A stretch of 33,273 nt of DNA from positions 1-33,273 of IMG/VR virus record IMGVR_UViG_3300037202_000027, one strand, 5' to 3'. Made by a program: the position numbers and the translations under genes. The stretch's first letter is position 1. Each line of letters begins with the position of its first letter. The DNA is from a virus. Under the pieces are notes generated by a model that was not told where the DNA came from, did not search any database, and worked only from the letters and a program-made list of their open reading frames with translations. Below are positions 1,552 to 15,296 of the stretch, in pieces.

Positions 1552-3108
1552 TTATCCCCACACGTCCACGGTCAGGCTGTTGGAGCCTAGATCCGGCTCG
1601 ATGCCGAGGACGATCATCGACCGGCCGTTTGCCCCGAGGCCGAGCCGGGGTTGCCCGGCGCTGTTCGTGATCTTGACCTGGCAGATCACCCCCAGATCGA
1701 GCACGGCGGCCAGATCGGCAACGGATTCCTCCCTCACCTTCAACTCCAGCCGCATGTGCTCGTACGCCTGCACGTGCTCAATGGCTAAAAAGACCGCTTC
1801 CAGATTGTTATCTGTGATGCGCTCGCACTGGAAGAGCTGCTTGGTGTCCGCCAGCAGGTGTTTGGCTAGAGGGTAGACGCCGTACGTTGTCGGCACTTCG
1901 GCGTATTGCTGAGTAAAAAACTGCGCCGGCACAGCAGGGTTGTTTGCATATGTGACGCTGCCGGCTACTTCGGTGGCATTGTGGACCGCAAAATTCTTGT
2001 TCCATTGGAAATCGAGGGAACGGATCGGCACGCCGCAGTTAGCGTCATTGGTCTGCAAGATCTCGGCGGAGATGATGTTGGAGTTGTCCAGGGTCACGAC
2101 CGGAGCGCCCCAGTACTGAGGGTCCATCGAGCCCGCGCGGAACGTCCCGGTCTTGTCGAACGCCCACCAGAGCTGCAATGGTGCGCAGAGCCGGTCGAGG
2201 ACGCTGTCGATGTTTTCCGTATCCCCCACCAGGATTCCGATGCCGCTCGCGTCGAAGGGGGCGGACGTCGGGATGCTTGAAGTATAAGGCGAGCCCAATG
2301 GCGCCAGGGCGAAGCCCAGCAGGATATGCATAGGCTGGGGATTGTCCACAGTGGCGGAGACCTTGCCTGCGGGGGTGGAACCCAGGCGCACCATGCCGCC
2401 GTATGGCCAATGTCGGAATGTGCCGGGGGCCGGCGCGTTCGCCTCCATGTCAGCCTGGGAGATGTAGTACGCCCCGGACGTCAGGGGGAGACCCATGTCG
2501 TATACCTGGAGCGACGTGACGGCGAAACCGGCGATGACGCTGGCGTCGTGCATTTGGTAGATCAGCTTGGAGGTATTTACCAGGACAGGGGGCATCAGGG
2601 CGCATCCACCCATGATGAACGGCTTGAAAGTGTTCAGCAGTCCAACCTCGCCATCGACGCCCGCGCCGTTGGTATTGGTGCCACCGTAAAGGTGCGTTTT
2701 AAAGGGGACCTGCAAGTTGGTATTGCTGTCCCTAATCCGGAGCGAAAAGGTTTTCCAGCCCCCGGTCAGTTGTTCGCTGATCCCGGTGAAGATGGTTGCG
2801 CCGGCGCTGGTCTTGATCCGCACTGGGTGGCCGTCCAGGCCCCAGGTCAGGAGATAGTCCAACGTGCCGTCCGGGTTGGCGAATTCCATGTCGCCGTACA
2901 TTGTGCTGGAATTGCCGCCCGTGGTGCCGGTGGAGAACAGGTCCCGGTGGTACCGGCCCGGATTGATCACCAGGGGTGTGTAATAGGTGTTTGCCGGCGT
3001 TCCGGTGGGCGGCGTGGTGAAGCCTTTGCCCGTGGAGAGGTAGAGGGTATTCGTGCCGCTCTTGACCGGGTCGAAGCCGTCGATCTCGATCAGGTAGAAA
3101 TCATTCAT
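1552..3108 (-). CDS. Distal tail / tail-tip structural protein
   Basis: A 518-residue protein that starts at ATG 3108, overlapping the tape measure stop by four bases (ATGA). It is beta-rich, with many glycine, threonine and tyrosine residues and no signal peptide or membrane segment, as expected for a virion protein. The region around residues 290-350 (GILVGDTENIDSVLDRL, then LQLWWAFDKTGTFRAGS) and the C-terminal part (LGVICQVKI, then SMIVLGIEPDL) look like the barrel repeats of tail-hub proteins. The gene directly after the tape measure normally encodes a distal tail or hub protein in long-tailed phages. That synteny is my main reason for the call, and I cannot assign a named family with certainty. 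Confidence 0.6.
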   Translation of the reverse strand: MNDFYLIEIDGFDPVKSGTNTLYLSTGKGFTTPPTGTPANTYYTPLVINPGRYHRDLFSTGTTGGNSSTMYGDMEFANPDGTLDYLLTWGLDGHPVRIKTSAGATIFTGISEQLTGGWKTFSLRIRDSNTNLQVPFKTHLYGGTNTNGAGVDGEVGLLNTFKPFIMGGCALMPPVLVNTSKLIYQMHDASVIAGFAVTSLQVYDMGLPLTSGAYYISQADMEANAPAPGTFRHWPYGGMVRLGSTPAGKVSATVDNPQPMHILLGFALAPLGSPYTSSIPTSAPFDASGIGILVGDTENIDSVLDRLCAPLQLWWAFDKTGTFRAGSMDPQYWGAPVVTLDNSNIISAEILQTNDANCGVPIRSLDFQWNKNFAVHNATEVAGSVTYANNPAVPAQFFTQQYAEVPTTYGVYPLAKHLLADTKQLFQCERITDNNLEAVFLAIEHVQAYEHMRLELKVREESVADLAAVLDLGVICQVKITNSAGQPRLGLGANGRSMIVLGIEPDLGSNSLTVDVWG

Positions 3109-6100
3109 CGTGATGCCTCCAGTTTGACCTTGCTCTTGATCTGCGCCATGTCGTCCGCCTGTCCCTGGCCCAGTTGGGCCAGCTTGTTGAAGCCTGCCTG
3201 ATTCACCTTCAGGAGGGGGATATCGGCCTTGTTCCGCTCGGTTCTGAGATCAGCGACTTCCTGTCGCAGGGCGCGGATCTCGTCGAGCAGAGCGCCGTTG
3301 TCAGCTTGCCCGTACATCCGGACCGGGATGGTCCTGCCGTCCGGCAGCGGCACGACCGCCTCCGGGCCGTTCTCGCCGGCTATCGACAGGCCGGAGGTGA
3401 TGCCGCCATCGGCAAATGCGGGTAGGCTGAGATTAGATACTGTAGCGCTGCCATTCATAGCTGCATTTGCACCCGCAATATTTGCGCTGTTTACCTGAAT
3501 CAACTGGTTAAGGGCAGTCACCATCTGGGAGTCATACCCTAACGATTGTTTTAACGTGCCGACCAGGCTGGCATTGCCGTCCGTGATGGCGGTACTGATG
3601 CTGGAGAGCGTGTCCAACTGTTTTTGAGCGGTCAGCAAGGTGGCGTTGGAAGAGTCGCCCAGCCCGGCTTGAGAGCTTAGAGCAGACATTACCGTCTGAT
3701 AATCCTTTTGATAATCCACGCCGGACGCATAGTATTTTTGGGATGCGGTCAAAAGCGATTGCCCGACTGCGCCCAGATTAGCCTGAGCCGACTGATCGCC
3801 TTGATTCGCACTCGACAAGGTAGACGCCCATAAGGCCTGCTGCTGGTTGTATGCATCCTGGGGCGACAAGGTCGACAAATTGCCGCCCAGGATAGATTTG
3901 ATGGCATTGGCGGCGGATGTTTGCAGAGTGGTAAGTTGCGTGACGGAGTCTTTAGCGGTATCCATGCTGTTCTTGATAGTCACGCCGAAATCCGAAACGG
4001 ACTGTTTGAACACATTGGTAAGCTCTATGGACTGTACAAGCGCCAGATTAGTAGTGTCATATCCCTTGGTTCTCGCGTCGGACAATTCCTGTTCATTAGA
4101 CATCAGCTTGTTTATGACCGAGGCGGCTCCCGTATCACCCAGGGCTGTGGCCATCCGGGCCGCAAGGGTATTATTGTAATCCACGGCCTGCTGATAGTAG
4201 GTTTGCGCTAATTTGTTGTACTCATCCTGTTGTACTGCCAAAAGCTGGGTTACATCGTACCCCTTGGCCCGAGCATCCGCCAATTCCTGCTCATTCTTGA
4301 TGCCCATTTGCAAGAATGCAATGTTGGAAGAACCCTTATCCGTGGCTGTCCAATCACGCACGATAAGATTTTCAGAATTAGTGGTCTCTGCCTGGTAATA
4401 ATCGGAAATTGCCTTGGTTAATTCCTCCTGTTGAACTGTAAGCAATTTGGTTACGTCATATCCTTTTGAATAAGCGTCATTCAGCTCTTGCTGATTAGAG
4501 GCCACTTTGTTCAAAATAGTGGCCTGCAAAGGGTCATTATCAAGGGTAGCCTGCCGAGCATCCACTCCTGTATTAAAAGACTGCATAGCATTCAGCGAAT
4601 CTTGAAGGGCTTTTTGCATCTCCATGGCTTGAACTGTTAATAACTGAGTGGTATCCAACCCCTTGTTGACTGTATCCGTGTACTCGGTCTGTTGTTGGAT
4701 TTGCAGATTAAGGATACTTGCGGCCGCTGATTGTCCAGATGCATTCATTGCCCTGACGTCCAGGGAGTTCGCAAGGTCGGTTGAGGCCTTGGTCGTGGCA
4801 TCTATGTACGTGGTCAGATCGCCGAATGCCGGGGCAATGCCCATCAATGTTTGAAAGGTGGCGGCACCCTGCGCGGTGGTTAAATCCAATGAATCGACGA
4901 GCTGGATAAATTCGGAATTCGTTTTGGGTACAGCCGTGCCTAACTGCGCAAATGTGGCATCGACTTGTTTTTGATCGTTGGCCGCGGTCATCGCTTGTTG
5001 CTGAACAGATGTAAACATGGCCGTGAAATAATCTTTTATCGATGTGTTGAACTTATCAGCGCCTCCCATTGAATCTTGAAGATTGTACGCTTCGGCGGCA
5101 TTATTAAGGGAAGGCGCAATCGGGTTAGCTCCCACAAGGGATAGGTTGGTATTTACATTGGTTATGGAGGATACCAGTCGTGAGAAAACGTCAGTGGCTG
5201 TCTCGCTGGCCGATATGGCAAATGATTTGAGATCGGGAATGGTCTTATCCAAAATAGTGCTGGAGATATTGACAAAGGCCGCCTGCAACTCTTTGAGGAT
5301 ATCGGCCTGACTTTTCCCGGCCGTTCCAACCGAGATAGGGGCTACCGATGTAGTCTGCATCGTCTGATCAAAACCGGCGCCGGAACCTCCCAATGCCACG
5401 ATACCTGTTCTGATGCTCCCAACGATATCTGAGATGCTTTTGCTGATGGCAGCGGAAAAAGTGGGGTCTGCCGCCCCCGTGTCAACGGTATAAGGTTTAG
5501 CCCCAGTCCACCAGTTACCAGAATCCTTATTGACGTACCCTTCGGTGGCGGATTGGCCATTATCCATTCCTACAGTGAAACCAGCCCCCGTAGTGTGCGA
5601 GTTTAAAGAGGTGTATAAGCCAGGAGCACCTTGGAGAGCAACCGTACCGGAACCTGTTTTCATGGAATTCGTTATCGTGGTAAGGGTGTCGGCAACTTTA
5701 AGCATGGATATGGAGATAGTCCCAAGATTCTTGGCTATTGCGTCCAGTTGCTGCCCCGTTTCCGTATCCAGGGTGGTTGCCAAGGGGGATGGTGTATAAG
5801 TGCCTATGCCCGTCGTTGATCCTCCTCCGCTGGCGCCCCCGTCTGCGAACGATCCGGAGGGTGCCGATACTGACCCGGCACCCCCGCCGAACGAGGTCGA
5901 TTCAATCTTGGCGATCTGTATGGCGCCGGTTGCAGCCGCGACAGCAGCGGCGGCCAGGCATGCCGGATACGGGACCGTCGCCATGGCGTTCATTATGGCG
6001 GCGGCGGTGGACATGACGGCGGCGGCGATGTTGTAAGCCTTGGCGGTCTCGAAACCGTGGCGGCTGGCTGTATCTTGGGTGCTCGCCAGGGCGGTGAAGA

Positions 6101-9011
6101 GATTGCCGGCAGTGCTGGTATAAGTGGCCGCCATAGTGAGCTGGGCCTTGAGGGAATCCTGGTTGATCTTGTTGGTGGCCTGGTCGTTTTTCTGCCGCTC
6201 CAGGGAGGCCTTGTCGTCCAGCGCTATAATCTGGGCGCTATAGTCCTTGTAGCTGGCGGTCCCGGCCATCAGCGCTTCAACCTGGGCGTTCTTTTCATCC
6301 TGGATCTGCTTCATCCGGGCGTCATGGGCCTGCTGCTGAACGGCGAGCTGGTTGGCTGTCTGGTCGGCGATGGAGTCGAACCCTCCGGAGGCGTTCGTCC
6401 CCACCAGGGATGCCGCGGTGGCGGAATTCTCTGTTTGAAGCGCTTCCAACGCCTTCCGGGTCTTCTCCTGATCCTGCCAAAGGGTATTCTGGATGCTCAA
6501 CTGGTCATTGACCTGCTGCATGCTGATCTGTTCGTCCGTGTATCCTTTCTTTTTCAGGTCAATGTACTTCTGCGCATCGGTGGCGTATTGGGCCGTGATG
6601 GTCAAGCCCTGGATCTGGAGCGACTGGATCTGCTGCTCCGTGGCGTAGCGCTGGATGGCGTCCTGGTTCTGGGTGGAGGAGTCAGAATACTTCTGTGCCT
6701 CCAGCGCCGCTTTTGCAATTGAGTCAGACAAAGCCTGCCCCGCTGTAACCGACTCCTTTTCCACCTTTTCAACGGTCGTGTATAGGTCGTTGTATTGCTT
6801 AACCGCCTCATTGTACTTGCTTAAATCGTCAGCATTACCGCTGAATACCGGCATTGATGCCTTATTCCACTTGTCGGCTGCCGAGTTGTAAGTGTCAATC
6901 GAGGCATCGGAGGTTTTTTGTAACAAGGAGATGTCTTTATCTGACATGTCTTTCTGTATCTGGTATTGCCGGTCTAGTGATTGTTGCGTAGTGATAAGCC
7001 CCTGCGCGTACATTTCTTTAATAGTCTCGGATTTCAGTGCTGCAGCGTTTTTAGACTCGTCAAGCTCCGCTTTGTCATATGCTTGGCTAACGGCTAGCTC
7101 TGCCGCCCTGAATAGTTCCGTTTCTTTTTGCAGGGCCAAGTTGTCGTTTACAACCGTAAATTGTGGCGTCAACTCAGCTTCACGCTCTTTTGCCTTCGTC
7201 ATCTGAGCAGCATCAATCTGCGCTTTGATGGCTGTGGTCTTGGCCTTGATCTCCTCAACCGTCCCACTGATTGCAGACGCTACCAGATGCTCTGAAGCGA
7301 TATGAGTTTGCTCAGCCTTGACATACTGGTCCTGCAAGTTGTAAAGCTCCTGTTGGGCTGATAGGAGCGACTTCTCAGCAGCCAGCTTGTCTACGTTCGA
7401 GTCAGGGGCATCGTTTTTGTCAGGTGCTTCAGGAGTCCCTTTATTGTACTGCCCTTGTGCCATATTAATGGCACCCTGATCGACGCCATAATCTCCATTG
7501 ATGTTGGTCTTGAGAGTATTCCAGGCGGCGAGGGCTTTCTGCTGGGCTTCTTGTACCAAACGGGGAATAGCCGCAAAGCTTCCTGTGACGGCCTCCATAA
7601 TGACTTGCCCCAGTGTGCTGAAGCCAGTAACTAAATCTTTAATGACCAGCTTGGAAGTCTCCCAGACAGATTCCAAGGCAAAACGGAAGGTATAGCCCCA
7701 AAGAGCAATATTTCCGGTAACATCACGGAGCAGTTGGCTGATACTCGGAAAGCCTCCCTTGAACAAATTGTACATCTCGGTGAAGATTGGAATTGTAAGG
7801 TCAGCCCAGACACGCTTGACGGAATCGCCCATGTTCTGATTTTCCTGGTTAAACCCAGCCTGGGCTACCTTGTAGGCTGCAACAGCCGCCACCGTTTCCG
7901 GGCCTATAAGGATTTGATACTCGGACATCCGAGCTTTGGACTTCTCAATCTGGTCATCATTAACCTGCATAGCTTCTTTAAGCTGCCCATAACTGCCTAA
8001 ACCCATCATGACGGCTACTTGGTTGCGCTCAGTGCCTTCGGTATAGGTATCCAGCACCTTGACGGCATTGGCAGCCACAGTGGAGAAGTCCAGTAGTTCC
8101 TTAGCATTATTCTTGTAAACCAAGCCGAGATCATCAAGCTGTTTCCCTTGGGCACTCGTATAATCAATAGACTCCGCATTATTCTTCACCGTGGTGACAT
8201 CCCCGGAATTCAGGTTCATCCGGGACATGGTGTTCTGCATGGTCTGGGCTTCTTCGGTGGTCATTTCCATCTGAACCCTGAAGTCCTCAACCTTCTTGGT
8301 GGCATCCACCAACCAGTCGACCTCGGTATTCTTCATGGAATCGCCGGAGAACAGCCCGGTGATGAACCCCGCGATCGCGCTGAGGATATCCCAGATGGTC
8401 TTCAGGGTTTCGTAGAAGGCGAAGGCGGCGGCAGCGGTTACGCCGAAAAGCACGGCGACCGCCGCGACCTCAATCTTGTTCTTCACCCACCCGGCAGCCG
8501 TGGCGGCCACGGTGCTGACGGTATCCATCAGGCCGCTATTGGTGGCCTTGACCTGCTCGGCCTGGGCCTGGAAGGCGGATGTGTTGTCAGAGCTAGCCTT
8601 GGCGGCGTTGCCTGTAGCCGAAGCCACATCATCCATGGAAGATGCGTAATTGTCCGCGTACTGGCCACCGTAGTCCAGTTGGCTGTTCATGGCCCTCTGC
8701 ATGTCTATAAAATTTAAAGCGGCGCCGGTGGCAATGCCGGCGACCTCAACAATTCTGGCCAGGCCGGAAACGATTGGGATGGGAGACCAAGAACCCAATT
8801 GACCGAGAGTGACCATCACCCCCGATATGTCGCCCGCCAGCCTGCCGGTGGCGCTGCTGGTATCGCCAAGGCCCGAGGACATGCGTTGGGTTGCGGTCTG
8901 GGTGGCTTTCCCGGCATTGTCGGCGGCCGTACCGACGTCGTTGAGCGCGCCGGTAACCTTGTCTTGACCGTCCGCCGACATAGCCAGTTTAAGTTCCGCT
9001 AAAGCCGCCAT
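3105..9011 (-). CDS. Tail tape measure protein (1968 aa)
   Basis: The largest gene of the window, starting at ATG 9011 with AAGGA upstream. Tape measure proteins set the length of the tail tube and pass into the cell envelope during DNA injection. Seen here: long alanine/glutamine/serine-rich helical and coiled-coil stretches; hydrophobic segments at about residues 182-222 and 994-1041; four roughly 66-residue repeats near residues 1430-1690; and a C-terminal motif near residues 1864-1897 (FADGGITSGLSIAGENGPEA) typical of tape measures. A coiled coil follows (LDEIRALRQEVADLRTE). It sits after the tail chaperones and before the tip genes. The common rule of about 0.15 nm per residue would predict a tail near 300 nm, which is long. 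A spacer containing palindromic repeats separates it from the chaperone gene. Confidence 0.93.
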   Translation of the reverse strand: MAALAELKLAMSADGQDKVTGALNDVGTAADNAGKATQTATQRMSSGLGDTSSATGRLAGDISGVMVTLGQLGSWSPIPIVSGLARIVEVAGIATGAALNFIDMQRAMNSQLDYGGQYADNYASSMDDVASATGNAAKASSDNTSAFQAQAEQVKATNSGLMDTVSTVAATAAGWVKNKIEVAAVAVLFGVTAAAAFAFYETLKTIWDILSAIAGFITGLFSGDSMKNTEVDWLVDATKKVEDFRVQMEMTTEEAQTMQNTMSRMNLNSGDVTTVKNNAESIDYTSAQGKQLDDLGLVYKNNAKELLDFSTVAANAVKVLDTYTEGTERNQVAVMMGLGSYGQLKEAMQVNDDQIEKSKARMSEYQILIGPETVAAVAAYKVAQAGFNQENQNMGDSVKRVWADLTIPIFTEMYNLFKGGFPSISQLLRDVTGNIALWGYTFRFALESVWETSKLVIKDLVTGFSTLGQVIMEAVTGSFAAIPRLVQEAQQKALAAWNTLKTNINGDYGVDQGAINMAQGQYNKGTPEAPDKNDAPDSNVDKLAAEKSLLSAQQELYNLQDQYVKAEQTHIASEHLVASAISGTVEEIKAKTTAIKAQIDAAQMTKAKEREAELTPQFTVVNDNLALQKETELFRAAELAVSQAYDKAELDESKNAAALKSETIKEMYAQGLITTQQSLDRQYQIQKDMSDKDISLLQKTSDASIDTYNSAADKWNKASMPVFSGNADDLSKYNEAVKQYNDLYTTVEKVEKESVTAGQALSDSIAKAALEAQKYSDSSTQNQDAIQRYATEQQIQSLQIQGLTITAQYATDAQKYIDLKKKGYTDEQISMQQVNDQLSIQNTLWQDQEKTRKALEALQTENSATAASLVGTNASGGFDSIADQTANQLAVQQQAHDARMKQIQDEKNAQVEALMAGTASYKDYSAQIIALDDKASLERQKNDQATNKINQDSLKAQLTMAATYTSTAGNLFTALASTQDTASRHGFETAKAYNIAAAVMSTAAAIMNAMATVPYPACLAAAAVAAATGAIQIAKIESTSFGGGAGSVSAPSGSFADGGASGGGSTTGIGTYTPSPLATTLDTETGQQLDAIAKNLGTISISMLKVADTLTTITNSMKTGSGTVALQGAPGLYTSLNSHTTGAGFTVGMDNGQSATEGYVNKDSGNWWTGAKPYTVDTGAADPTFSAAISKSISDIVGSIRTGIVALGGSGAGFDQTMQTTSVAPISVGTAGKSQADILKELQAAFVNISSTILDKTIPDLKSFAISASETATDVFSRLVSSITNVNTNLSLVGANPIAPSLNNAAEAYNLQDSMGGADKFNTSIKDYFTAMFTSVQQQAMTAANDQKQVDATFAQLGTAVPKTNSEFIQLVDSLDLTTAQGAATFQTLMGIAPAFGDLTTYIDATTKASTDLANSLDVRAMNASGQSAAASILNLQIQQQTEYTDTVNKGLDTTQLLTVQAMEMQKALQDSLNAMQSFNTGVDARQATLDNDPLQATILNKVASNQQELNDAYSKGYDVTKLLTVQQEELTKAISDYYQAETTNSENLIVRDWTATDKGSSNIAFLQMGIKNEQELADARAKGYDVTQLLAVQQDEYNKLAQTYYQQAVDYNNTLAARMATALGDTGAASVINKLMSNEQELSDARTKGYDTTNLALVQSIELTNVFKQSVSDFGVTIKNSMDTAKDSVTQLTTLQTSAANAIKSILGGNLSTLSPQDAYNQQQALWASTLSSANQGDQSAQANLGAVGQSLLTASQKYYASGVDYQKDYQTVMSALSSQAGLGDSSNATLLTAQKQLDTLSSISTAITDGNASLVGTLKQSLGYDSQMVTALNQLIQVNSANIAGANAAMNGSATVSNLSLPAFADGGITSGLSIAGENGPEAVVPLPDGRTIPVRMYGQADNGALLDEIRALRQEVADLRTERNKADIPLLKVNQAGFNKLAQLGQGQADDMAQIKSKVKLEASR
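3970..4712 (-). repeat. Four about 66-residue repeats inside the tape measure
   Basis: Four copies of the pattern NEQELxDAxxKGYDxTxLLxVQQxEL follow each other with KGYD (KGLD in the first copy) spaced 66-67 codons apart, about 198-201 bp. The copies are diverged at the DNA level, so this is an old internal duplication. Each unit should add about 10 nm of tail by the usual length rule. Confidence 0.85.
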
Positions 9012-12654: not shown

Positions 12655-13716
12655 TCAGACGCTGCCGTCGCTGCCGAAGATCAACTGCCAGAAACCGTAG
12701 CCGCCGGCAGCCCTTGCCTCGGCGCCGAACTTGAATTTCTTACGCATGAAAACGTCCTCGGTCTGGGGATCGATCTGCTGGACGAAGACCGGTTTCTTGC
12801 GTTCCTGGTAGATGAACGGCTTGATCGGCTTGGTGGTGTCCAGGAGGAACCAGGCGGTGTCGCTGGTCAGCCTGGAGTCGCACACCACGGTGGCGGTGCC
12901 CTTGTAGGGGTTGGCCTTGCCGTCGTCCAGGCGGTCGTTGGTCATGAGGACGTTAGCGATGTCCTCCAGGGCCGGTGGCACCAGGAGCACGTTGGGGGTG
13001 ATGTTGAGACGGCGCCCTTCGTCGTCGGTGAACTTCTTCATGGCGGTGCGGTACGCGCCGTAAGAGGCCATGGCGGCCGCCTGGGAAGAACAGACCAGCT
13101 TGGCGGTGCCCTTGTTGCTGACCGACTGCACCGTGCCGGTAACATCGGTTACGGGGTGATCGACGTCGCACATATACTGGGCGTCGTAACATGTATTTGT
13201 GAAGACGCCGTCGACCAGGGCCGCGACGATCTCGTCCGGGAGCTGCTTGGCGGAGAAGCCGGCCATCTCGGCCTGGGGGGCATAGATGCCGAGCTGATCG
13301 TCCTCGATATCGTTCCGGTCCACCTCGACCGTGGCCTCCCAGTCGTCGTTGGTGATGGTGTAGTTAAAGGCGGCCAGGGCCTTGATCGCCTTGTCTCCCA
13401 CCCATTTCTTCATGCGGGGGAAGTTGGCCAGCCACTTGTAGTCGTTGGTCCTTGTGCCTGACGGGACCAGCATGGCGATCTTGTCCCAGATGGAGGGTGC
13501 GCCGTCGAAGGCCCGGTTGAATGTGGTCTTGAGGTTGACGAAGATGTTGGCGATGGTGCTGGCGTTGACGATCATGCCGCCGATAAAGAAAAGCGGCAGT
13601 GAGGCGACCGCAGGTCCGGTCGCGGCCATGGCGCCGTGGGGGCACATGGTCACGGCCACGATAAGCAGTATGGCCCAGACGGCAAAACCTTGGAAATGGG
13701 AAAGCAGGTTTTTCAT
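12655..13716 (-). CDS. Major capsid protein (Mu gpT type) with N-terminal signal-like extension
   Basis: A 353-residue protein. From residue 48 (MIVNASTIANIFVNLKTTF) it follows the usual Mu-type major head subunit: DGAPSIWDKIAMLVPSGTR, NDYKWLANFPRMKKW, a central VDRNDIEDDQLG and a C-terminal region on FRAQKxx-type beta strands (KKPVFVQQIDPQ). It forms the icosahedral shell. The odd part is residues 1-47: KNLLSHFQGF, a hydrophobic stretch VWAILLIVAVTM and AMA before ATG, which together look like a Sec signal peptide. The start at 13716 has a strong ribosome binding site (GAGGAGG at normal distance), while the canonical start at 13575 has none, so the extension is probably translated. The head protease may remove it during maturation. 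Confidence 0.9.
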   Translation of the reverse strand: MKNLLSHFQGFAVWAILLIVAVTMCPHGAMAATGPAVASLPLFFIGGMIVNASTIANIFVNLKTTFNRAFDGAPSIWDKIAMLVPSGTRTNDYKWLANFPRMKKWVGDKAIKALAAFNYTITNDDWEATVEVDRNDIEDDQLGIYAPQAEMAGFSAKQLPDEIVAALVDGVFTNTCYDAQYMCDVDHPVTDVTGTVQSVSNKGTAKLVCSSQAAAMASYGAYRTAMKKFTDDEGRRLNITPNVLLVPPALEDIANVLMTNDRLDDGKANPYKGTATVVCDSRLTSDTAWFLLDTTKPIKPFIYQERKKPVFVQQIDPQTEDVFMRKKFKFGAEARAAGGYGFWQLIFGSDGSV

Positions 13717-13747
13717 GGAAAATCCTCCTCAGGAGATTGATGTTTGG

Positions 13748-14143
13748 TTACTGGACCCAGATGCCGTCGGTATCGACTTCGATGACCGTACCGGCGGCGG
13801 ATTTGCCGGTTGAGGTGTGGCTTACGGTCTGGTCGTCCTCGATGTAGCAGGTCTTTCCCAGGTCCGCCTGGACAACGGCGTCAGAGCCGCTGTTCTTCCA
13901 CTTGAAGGCCTTTTTGCGGCGCACCATGACGCTTACAGCGCCGTCTGCGCCGGCTGTGTTGTCGACCATCTGCTCGGAGCGGCCGATGTAGGTAAGGGTC
14001 GTTGCGGTGGCGCCGGGCGTGGCAAATCCGGTGGCGTTGGCGGCCACCAGTGCCCCGGCGAAGATCTTCTTGCCGACGGCCACGGGGACGGAGATCAGTT
14101 CGCCGTCCTTGAACTGGGTGTTGCGGTCTGCGGTCAATGCCAT
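13748..14143 (-). CDS. Head decoration / cement protein candidate
   Basis: A 131-residue protein from ATG 14143 behind AGGAGG. It is beta-rich, with the pattern VPVAVGKKIFAGALVAANA, then GRSEQMVDN, RRKKAFKWKNS and DLGKTCYIEDDQTV. This type of small protein is common between the protease/scaffold and capsid genes of Mu-like phages. By position and composition it is a head decoration or cement protein that binds the outside of the shell, but I infer that role and cannot show it. It is separated from the scaffold gene by a 112-nt spacer with a hexamer-repeat palindrome. Confidence 0.65.
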   Translation of the reverse strand: MALTADRNTQFKDGELISVPVAVGKKIFAGALVAANATGFATPGATATTLTYIGRSEQMVDNTAGADGAVSVMVRRKKAFKWKNSGSDAVVQADLGKTCYIEDDQTVSHTSTGKSAAGTVIEVDTDGIWVQ

Positions 14144-14255: not shown

Positions 14256-14750
14256 TTACTTCCCGTATTTGGCGATATCCTCGGCCGAGTTGCCGAACAT
14301 GCCAGCTATTCTCTGCTCTTCGGCGTTCAGGGCCGTTTCCTGGTCGCCGGGCTTCTTGCCGTCCAGGTTGCTTTTATCGGCAACGGTCGGGGCGGCTGTG
14401 GCGAATGCCTTGAAGCGCTCCAGGCCGCCTTCCTGTTTGCATTGGGCGATGTGATACTCCTTGGTGGCCGGGGTGATCTTGCCGGCCGTAAGGGCCGCGG
14501 CGATCTCGGTGTTGATGGCGGTTTCAAGCGCCGCGTCGGCCTGCAGCTTCAGCTTGGCCTCGGAGTCGTTGGCCCGGTTGACGGCCACGTCGTAGTCGGC
14601 CTTGGGCACGAACTTGTCCAGGGACGGGCTGTTTGCGGCGTTGAGGGCCACGTTCAGATCGCCCTTGAGCTTGGTGATGTGGTTGATTGCCTCGTCGAAG
14701 GTTGCCGTCGGGGCCATTCCCAGGACGGCCAGAATCGCTGCTAAATTCAT
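14256..14750 (-). CDS. Nested scaffold protein (Mu gpZ type)
   Basis: An in-frame ATG at 14750 inside the protease gene has its own strong ribosome binding site (AGAAAGGAGTCACC before the ATG), giving a 164-residue product starting MNLAAILAVLGMAP. In Mu, the scaffold Z is made from an internal start in gene I in the same way. The product is helical and charged, with a middle coiled coil (DYDVAVNRANDSEAKLKLQA) and a conserved-looking C-terminus (EEQRIAGMFGNSAEDIAKYG) that probably binds the capsid protein. It is expected to be needed in large amounts during head assembly and then degraded. Confidence 0.82.
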   Translation of the reverse strand: MNLAAILAVLGMAPTATFDEAINHITKLKGDLNVALNAANSPSLDKFVPKADYDVAVNRANDSEAKLKLQADAALETAINTEIAAALTAGKITPATKEYHIAQCKQEGGLERFKAFATAAPTVADKSNLDGKKPGDQETALNAEEQRIAGMFGNSAEDIAKYGK

Positions 14751-15296
14751 GGTGACTCCTTTCTCTTGCTGTTGGTTGAGAGCTGGTACGTCCAGGTTTG
14801 GCGTATTGGTGAGGCCGACGCTCTTGATGCCGACGATGTTCATGGTCTGGCGGTCGTAGATGTAGGCCGGCGAGTAGTAGCGGTACTGGCGGTTCATGAC
14901 AAGGTCGGAACCGGGGGCGTTCCAGTCGAACTTTCCCCATACGGAACCGTCGGACTTCACCTCCAGCCCGGTGCCCCAGGCCATGGCCGGGGCCGCGTCG
15001 CCGTTGGGGGCCTTCAGTTGGGTGGCGTGCTCGACGTCCATCGGGATATCCACGCCGTTCCCCTTGAAGAAATCAACGATTCCCTGAGGATCGGGATTGT
15101 TCCAGCCGCGGCCGTCTCTCCCTTCCACGCGGGCGCCGGCAGGCACCAGCATCAGCTCCGCAGGCGGGGCAGCAGCGCCGTCCGCCATTCCCATATCCAT
15201 GTTAAGGGCATATCCGACCGGGATAGCGCCGTTGTTCAGTGCCAGAGCCAGGGTTTTGACGATTTGGCGCTCATCATCAACAATCAAGATTTTCAT
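14256..15296 (-). CDS. Prohead protease with C-terminal scaffold (Mu gpI type), odd N-terminus
   Basis: A 346-residue protein from ATG 15296 with a strong AGGAGG site. From about residue 40 it reads as the Mu I family: PAELMLVPAGARVEGRDGRG, then IPMDVEHATQLKAP (probable active-site His region), SPAYIYD and IKSVGLTNTPNLDVPALN. The protease cuts the scaffold and matures the head. The C-terminal 164 residues form the scaffold domain, which is also made alone (see 14256-14750). The first 20 residues, MKILIVDDERQIVKTLALAL, look like the beginning of a response-regulator receiver domain (first strand, acidic DD pair, first helix) and not like usual gpI leaders. No other receiver motifs follow. Confidence 0.88.
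   Translation of the reverse strand: MKILIVDDERQIVKTLALALNNGAIPVGYALNMDMGMADGAAAPPAELMLVPAGARVEGRDGRGWNNPDPQGIVDFFKGNGVDIPMDVEHATQLKAPNGDAAPAMAWGTGLEVKSDGSVWGKFDWNAPGSDLVMNRQYRYYSPAYIYDRQTMNIVGIKSVGLTNTPNLDVPALNQQQEKGVTMNLAAILAVLGMAPTATFDEAINHITKLKGDLNVALNAANSPSLDKFVPKADYDVAVNRANDSEAKLKLQADAALETAINTEIAAALTAGKITPATKEYHIAQCKQEGGLERFKAFATAAPTVADKSNLDGKKPGDQETALNAEEQRIAGMFGNSAEDIAKYGK

Follow-up and report, generated by a model that had tools for sequence, protein, structure and literature searches.

A modular signal-peptide-like leader on the Mu gpT-type major capsid protein of a transposable phage and its relatives

Why does the major capsid protein of a Mu-like phage start with a stretch that resembles a signal peptide? 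The question is raised by IMG/VR record IMGVR_UViG_3300037202_000027, whose 33,273 nucleotides (the window, i.e., the whole stretch analyzed) represent a Mu-like transposable phage with genes for a Mu-type transposase (PF02316 and PF09299), a portal (PF06074), and protein F (PF04233). Its capsid gene carries 47 codons ahead of the position at which gpT-type proteins canonically start. A preliminary description made from the sequence had reported these codons, their hydrophobic core, AMA end, and ribosome site, and had placed the canonical start of the gpT body at residue 48; the coordinates and all of these features proved correct, and the alignment to phrog_371 (PHROG 371, major head protein; E = 1e-103) indeed begins at residue 48. 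The body also matches Pfam PF10124 (Mu-like_gpT; E = 9e-94), and a Foldseek search with the AlphaFold2 (AF2) model of the protein (mean predicted local distance difference test [pLDDT] score, 80.6) gave the JBD30 procapsid (E = 8e-18) and the Mu capsid (E = 4e-15) as best matches, with template modeling (TM) scores of only ~0.5, in agreement with a predicted HK97 fold. A start at the canonical Met without a leader is common in the gpT family, although the family profile does not demand it; the window protein instead has 47 extra residues in frame with a body that begins at Met48 (MIVNAS...). Beyond what the preliminary description could foresee, the feature turned out to be both modular and common, and some related phages have hydrophobic leaders on other head proteins.

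IMG/VR was scanned twice and GTDB genomes once, which gave 164 distinct genes of the gpT type whose body could be used. A leader of 36 to 53 residues is encoded by 40 of these, namely, the window gene and 39 other distinct loci with the same design at the same place, and the remaining 124 are short forms; the recurrence at 40 distinct loci rules out an assembly or sequencing error as the source. Scoring of the window gene found a Shine-Dalgarno (SD) site before the first ATG of the leader and none upstream of Met48. Among all long forms, an SD match was present at the leader start in 40/40; at the canonical position, such a match coupled to a start codon occurred in 0/40, and the short forms scored (120 of the 124) had an SD match before the canonical start in every case. 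Since the sorting into long and short forms relied partly on ribosome-site criteria, the independent evidence comes from amino acid features and from the canonical Met codon itself, which is replaced by a Leu codon (CTG, CTC, TTA, or TTG) in 18 of the 40 long forms. With Leu now at this codon and no ribosome site paired with a start codon there, the leader must be regarded as obligatory in many relatives; its translation starts from a ribosome site of its own. The difference in starts can be followed in the close relatives L088 (long) and L018 (short), where similar ribosome sites (AGGAGGAACCACAAA and AGGAGGAACCAAACA, respectively) lie directly 5' of different starts.

Prophages with the long form are found in Beta- and Gammaproteobacteria, Thermodesulfobacteriota, Nitrospirota, and other groups. 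Their hosts include Geomonas, Geobacteraceae, Pseudodesulfovibrio, Nitrosovibrio, Herbaspirillum, Sideroxydans, Gallionella, Methylotenera, and Rhodocyclaceae, as well as a Nitrospiria bacterium, a gammaproteobacterium, a KSB1 bacterium, and a deltaproteobacterial metagenome-assembled genome, and contigs of Nitrosomonas and Nitrosospira match viral entries. Environmental lysogens that carry a long form include Geomonas limicola Red745 (L083), Nitrosospira sp. NpAV (L118), and Nitrosovibrio sp. Nv4 (L097). A sig_peptide feature annotated on the gpT protein of Salinibacter phage M31CR41-2 (MF580961.1, 13531-14538; L340) covers the whole gene of a protein that has no hydrophobic start and is probably an annotation oddity.

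The design of the leaders was assessed with our own rule set, which requires a basic start, an uncharged 9-residue core with a mean hydropathy of ≥2, small residues at -3 and -1, and no acidic residue before the site. The window leader passed these Sec-type criteria, and 35/40 leaders passed overall, relative to 8/961 (0.8%) other SD-preceded open reading frames (ORFs) of the same loci, 11% of residue-shuffled leaders, and 0/124 short-form N termini. The first ten residues carry a net charge of +1 or more in 40/40 leaders, only 2 of the 73 acidic residues in the 40 leaders fall within the first 22 positions, and an AxA motif occurs within residues 13 to 36 in 36/40 leaders (mean of 19 and maximum of 29 in 2,000 shuffles). 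The leader design is thus more than chance would produce and looks Sec signal-like by every feature tested, in line with what the preliminary description had proposed. For the window leader, AF2 placed a helix at residues 2 to 24, followed by very low confidence at residues 25 to 48.

The ratio of nonsynonymous to synonymous substitution rates (dN/dS) of the leader was below 1 in 12 of 12 pairs computed (0.09 to 0.55), with values of ≤0.18 for the body, although these figures are rough, as many pairs are close to saturation at synonymous sites. Translation of the leader is supported by these values, and the leader keeps its signal-peptide anatomy while its sequence diverges fast. On the body tree, the long/short label requires at least 16 changes (16 to 17), 10 of them forced by well-supported branches, relative to a mean of 36 for shuffled labels, and a single origin with vertical descent only was rejected, as a tree with the long forms in one clade did not pass the approximately unbiased (AU) test (P = 1e-98, quick trees). 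The preliminary description had named relatives starting at the canonical Met as a finding that would speak against it; such relatives do exist (the 124 short forms), but so do the 40 long genes and the at least 16 changes between the two states. In two pairs (L152/L177 and L020/L031), the upstream DNA and leader are 91 to 96% identical, whereas the bodies are only 70 to 79% identical, which points to recombination at the leader/body border. Taken together, these results show that the leader comes and goes as a module and that some leaders have been exchanged by recombination. Among the nearest sisters of the window gene, L063 and L083 have a leader, and L001, L002, and L082 do not. No convincing match was obtained when a donor gene of the leader was sought within phages.

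The end of the leader is conserved as well. The consensus is [GA]-Phi-[AGL]-G/[ML]-[LI]-V-N, where the slash marks the junction, with Gly at -1 in 36/40 leaders, Gly or Ala at -4 in 30/40, and V/I-N at +3/+4, and the junction coincides with the canonical gpT start. The linker is otherwise variable, except that an acidic residue (D or E) is found at -10 from the canonical start in 20/40 leaders (e.g., L034:2925-3965; 1.9 bits), which is possibly part of a protease recognition site. The gene for the prohead protease (PF10123) lies in the same head cluster as the capsid gene, and the conserved Gly/Met or Gly/Leu junction would be consistent with removal of the leader by a protease. Mu gpT itself starts canonically, as determined by amino acid sequencing (record note), and the N-terminal arm of the JBD30 capsid protein has a terminal hook through which paired arms touch between capsomers (PMC11445458). 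The hook argues for a clean N terminus, and a leader ahead of the arm would probably have to be removed.

We tentatively favor a mechanism that may well apply, in which a Sec- or signal recognition particle (SRP)-type leader brings the capsid precursor to the inner membrane and its cleavage at the Gly junction restores the canonical N terminus. The first ~31 residues of the precursor would act as the signal sequence and direct freshly synthesized capsid protein to the inner membrane, where proheads might form at the membrane or tethered to it, as precedent in another phage suggests. A short flexible linker would connect the signal sequence to the gpT body, and a cut at Gly47/Met48, most likely by the phage prohead protease, would free the head and yield the canonical N terminus needed for the N-terminal arm. 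A broader and more doubtful proposition is that HK97-fold tailed phages of a widespread group assemble their heads on the host inner membrane in this way, through the capsid protein's own Sec-type signal carried as a mobile module, with leader proteolysis freeing the head.

Hydrophobic leaders were also observed on two further head protein families in relatives. In L088 (L266:16308-17360) and L018 (1868-2914), a 60-residue leader with two hydrophobic segments precedes the usual ALTADRDTP start of the decoration protein (phrog_1731), such that L088 has leaders on both its decoration and its capsid protein. A phrog_240 "head protein" in the phage of L036 (L310:11103-11612) has a signal-like start that six cluster mates lack, and another phrog_240 match (L093:8166-8729) has a signal-like start ending in AYAEAPGGG. 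These cases are few and were noticed only in retrospect, yet every one concerns a head protein, and we count them in favor of membrane targeting.

Several points weigh against the proposed mechanism. The weak point is topology, as the capsid body would be carried across the membrane and away from the DNA by a genuine Sec signal that has a signal-peptidase site; folding or assembly may block translocation, targeting alone may be used, or the leader may have another role. Neither long nor short phages showed the junction motif in their protease and scaffold proteins. When gene families tracking the leader were sought in 24 long and 26 short prophages, none was significant after correction for 82 tests; the best association (uncorrected P = 0.0007), a spanin-like gene present with short forms only, is likely a lineage effect. 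The leader is also absent from close relatives of the window gene with bodies 82 to 83% identical (L001, L002, and L082) and from the Mu-type proteins sampled, and our literature search found no experiment on it.

The conserved junction at the mature start, together with the predicted helix and the flexible stretch that follows it, would also suit an assembly-control propeptide, i.e., a small delta-domain-like segment that holds the subunit state in the prohead and is cut by the protease, has no membrane role, and is hydrophobic for the sake of subunit or chaperone contacts. We consider this rather unlikely, since it leaves the signal-peptide grammar unexplained (the basic start, the lack of acidic residues before the core end, and AxA) and since the window probably still encodes a separate scaffold. 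Accessory or arms-race traits typically show patchy gain and loss (16 to 17 changes here), modular exchange, and rapid change, and the leader might instead send some of the capsid protein to the periplasm or hide the protein from a cytoplasmic defense that senses it, with no part in head assembly. This explanation is improbable, given that every copy would carry the leader in the many relatives where it is the only start and that the body is under strong purifying selection, as in a working capsid.

Retention of the leader in the virion, where it would bind host phospholipid and give a lipid-touched capsid, has a precedent in an engineered T7 phage, whose particles acquired phospholipids through a signal peptide joined to the capsid protein (PMC5157022). 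It is nevertheless highly improbable here, as the Gly junction, conserved exactly at the canonical start, suggests removal and as the JBD30 arm forms intercapsomer hooks. An equally slim chance attaches to the leader being a neutral or relic fusion, tolerated and removed by cleavage but serving no function: close relatives often lack the leader, and selection looks looser on it than on the body, but AxA and the basic start are kept in 36 to 40 of the 40 leaders despite large synonymous divergence. Finally, the idea that Met48, which aligns with the start of short relatives, is the true start and the leader an unread upstream frame is close to refuted by the missing ribosome site at Met48, the Leu codons at this position in long relatives, and a leader dN/dS below 1.

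The features of the window leader and its head gene cluster are compiled in Table 1. The order of the protease, decoration protein, and capsid protein genes is that of D3112. Elsewhere in the window, a 1,968-codon ORF (3105-9011, minus strand) downstream of the tail tube gene has no Pfam match and perhaps encodes a tail protein.

Table 1. Positions of the capsid leader, its parts, and neighboring head genes in the window
Feature	Position	Strand	Basis
Major capsid protein gene, Mu gpT type, 353 amino acids, with N-terminal leader	12655..13716	-	PF10124, phrog_371, Foldseek
Signal-peptide-like leader of 47 codons, residues 1-47 (MKNLLSHFQGFAVWAILLIVAVTMCPHGAMAATGPAVASLPLFFIGG)	13576..13716	-	Translation; 39 other loci with same design; passes rule-based signal-peptide test
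SD site AGGAGG, 7 nucleotides 5' of leader ATG1	13724..13729	-	Sequence, scored
n-region, residues 1-9, basic, MKNLLSHFQ	13690..13716	-	Sequence
Hydrophobic core, residues 11-25 (FAVWAILLIVAVTMC)	13642..13686	-	Sequence; best 9-mer mean Kyte-Doolittle hydropathy 3.1; AF2 helix 2-24
c-region PHGAMA, residues 26-31 (AMA, 29-31); candidate signal-peptidase I site after Ala31	13624..13641	-	Sequence
Linker, residues 32-43, from AMA to junction	13588..13623	-	Sequence; AF2 pLDDT <50 at residues 25-48
Junction FIGG/MIVN, residues 44-51; candidate maturation cut Gly47/Met48	13564..13587	-	Conservation across leaders
Head decoration-type protein gene, 131 amino acids, next upstream of capsid gene, without leader in the window	13748..14143	-	phrog_1731 virion structural protein, E = 8e-51; SD AGGAGGT
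Prohead protease, Mu gpI type, start taken at MKILIVDD; candidate enzyme for junction	14256..15296	-	PF10123 Mu-like_Pro, E = 4e-43; phrog_328 head maturation protease
Probable scaffold (Mu Z-like), internal in-frame start MNLAAIL with own AAGGAG	14256..14750	-	Sequence and analogy to Mu I/Z annotation

In the literature searched, which left subscription journals mostly uncovered and so provides weak evidence of novelty, we found no paper on a natural signal-type leader on an HK97-fold or tailed-phage capsid protein. According to a 2011 review, prohead membrane association had been shown for no tailed phage except T4 (PMC3185693). If the proposed mechanism is true, the capsid protein's own signal-type leader would be a direct and genetically separable link to the membrane, and close pairs with and without it, such as L088 and L018, make the membrane question testable. 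A further caution is that a conserved segment would be overlooked wherever the canonical Met is taken as the gene start or as the beginning of a capsid model.

Among known systems, the closest in the body is the major capsid protein of the Casadabanvirus phages D3112 and JBD30 (PF10124), which is homologous to the window protein from residue 48 and shares its HK97 fold and, in D3112, the gene order, but the D3112 protein starts MLINKQ and has no leader. The delta domains of HK97 and T5 are likewise N-terminal pieces of a capsid precursor that are expected to be lost at maturation. They are larger scaffold-type domains, whereas the window-type leader is ~45 amino acids long, hydrophobic, and signal-peptide-like, with a scaffold gene probably still present. 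The T4 prohead is bound to the inner membrane and freed after maturation cleavage (PMC9958956), and the logic proposed here would be the same, i.e., a precursor head at the membrane that is released by cleavage; in T4, however, the portal gp20, together with gp40 and YidC, provides the link in place of a signal sequence borne by the capsid protein. Filamentous phages also have a leader on their major coat protein, pVIII, which is cut after membrane insertion (PMC3185693), although pVIII is an unrelated small membrane protein that is extruded through the envelope and does not form an HK97-fold shell. A signal peptide has been placed on a tailed-phage capsid protein in T7 engineered with that of PhoE (PMC5157022), but that case is man-made, whereas the leader described here is natural and recurrent. 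Relative to these systems, the new part is a modular, selected leader on the gpT capsid protein.
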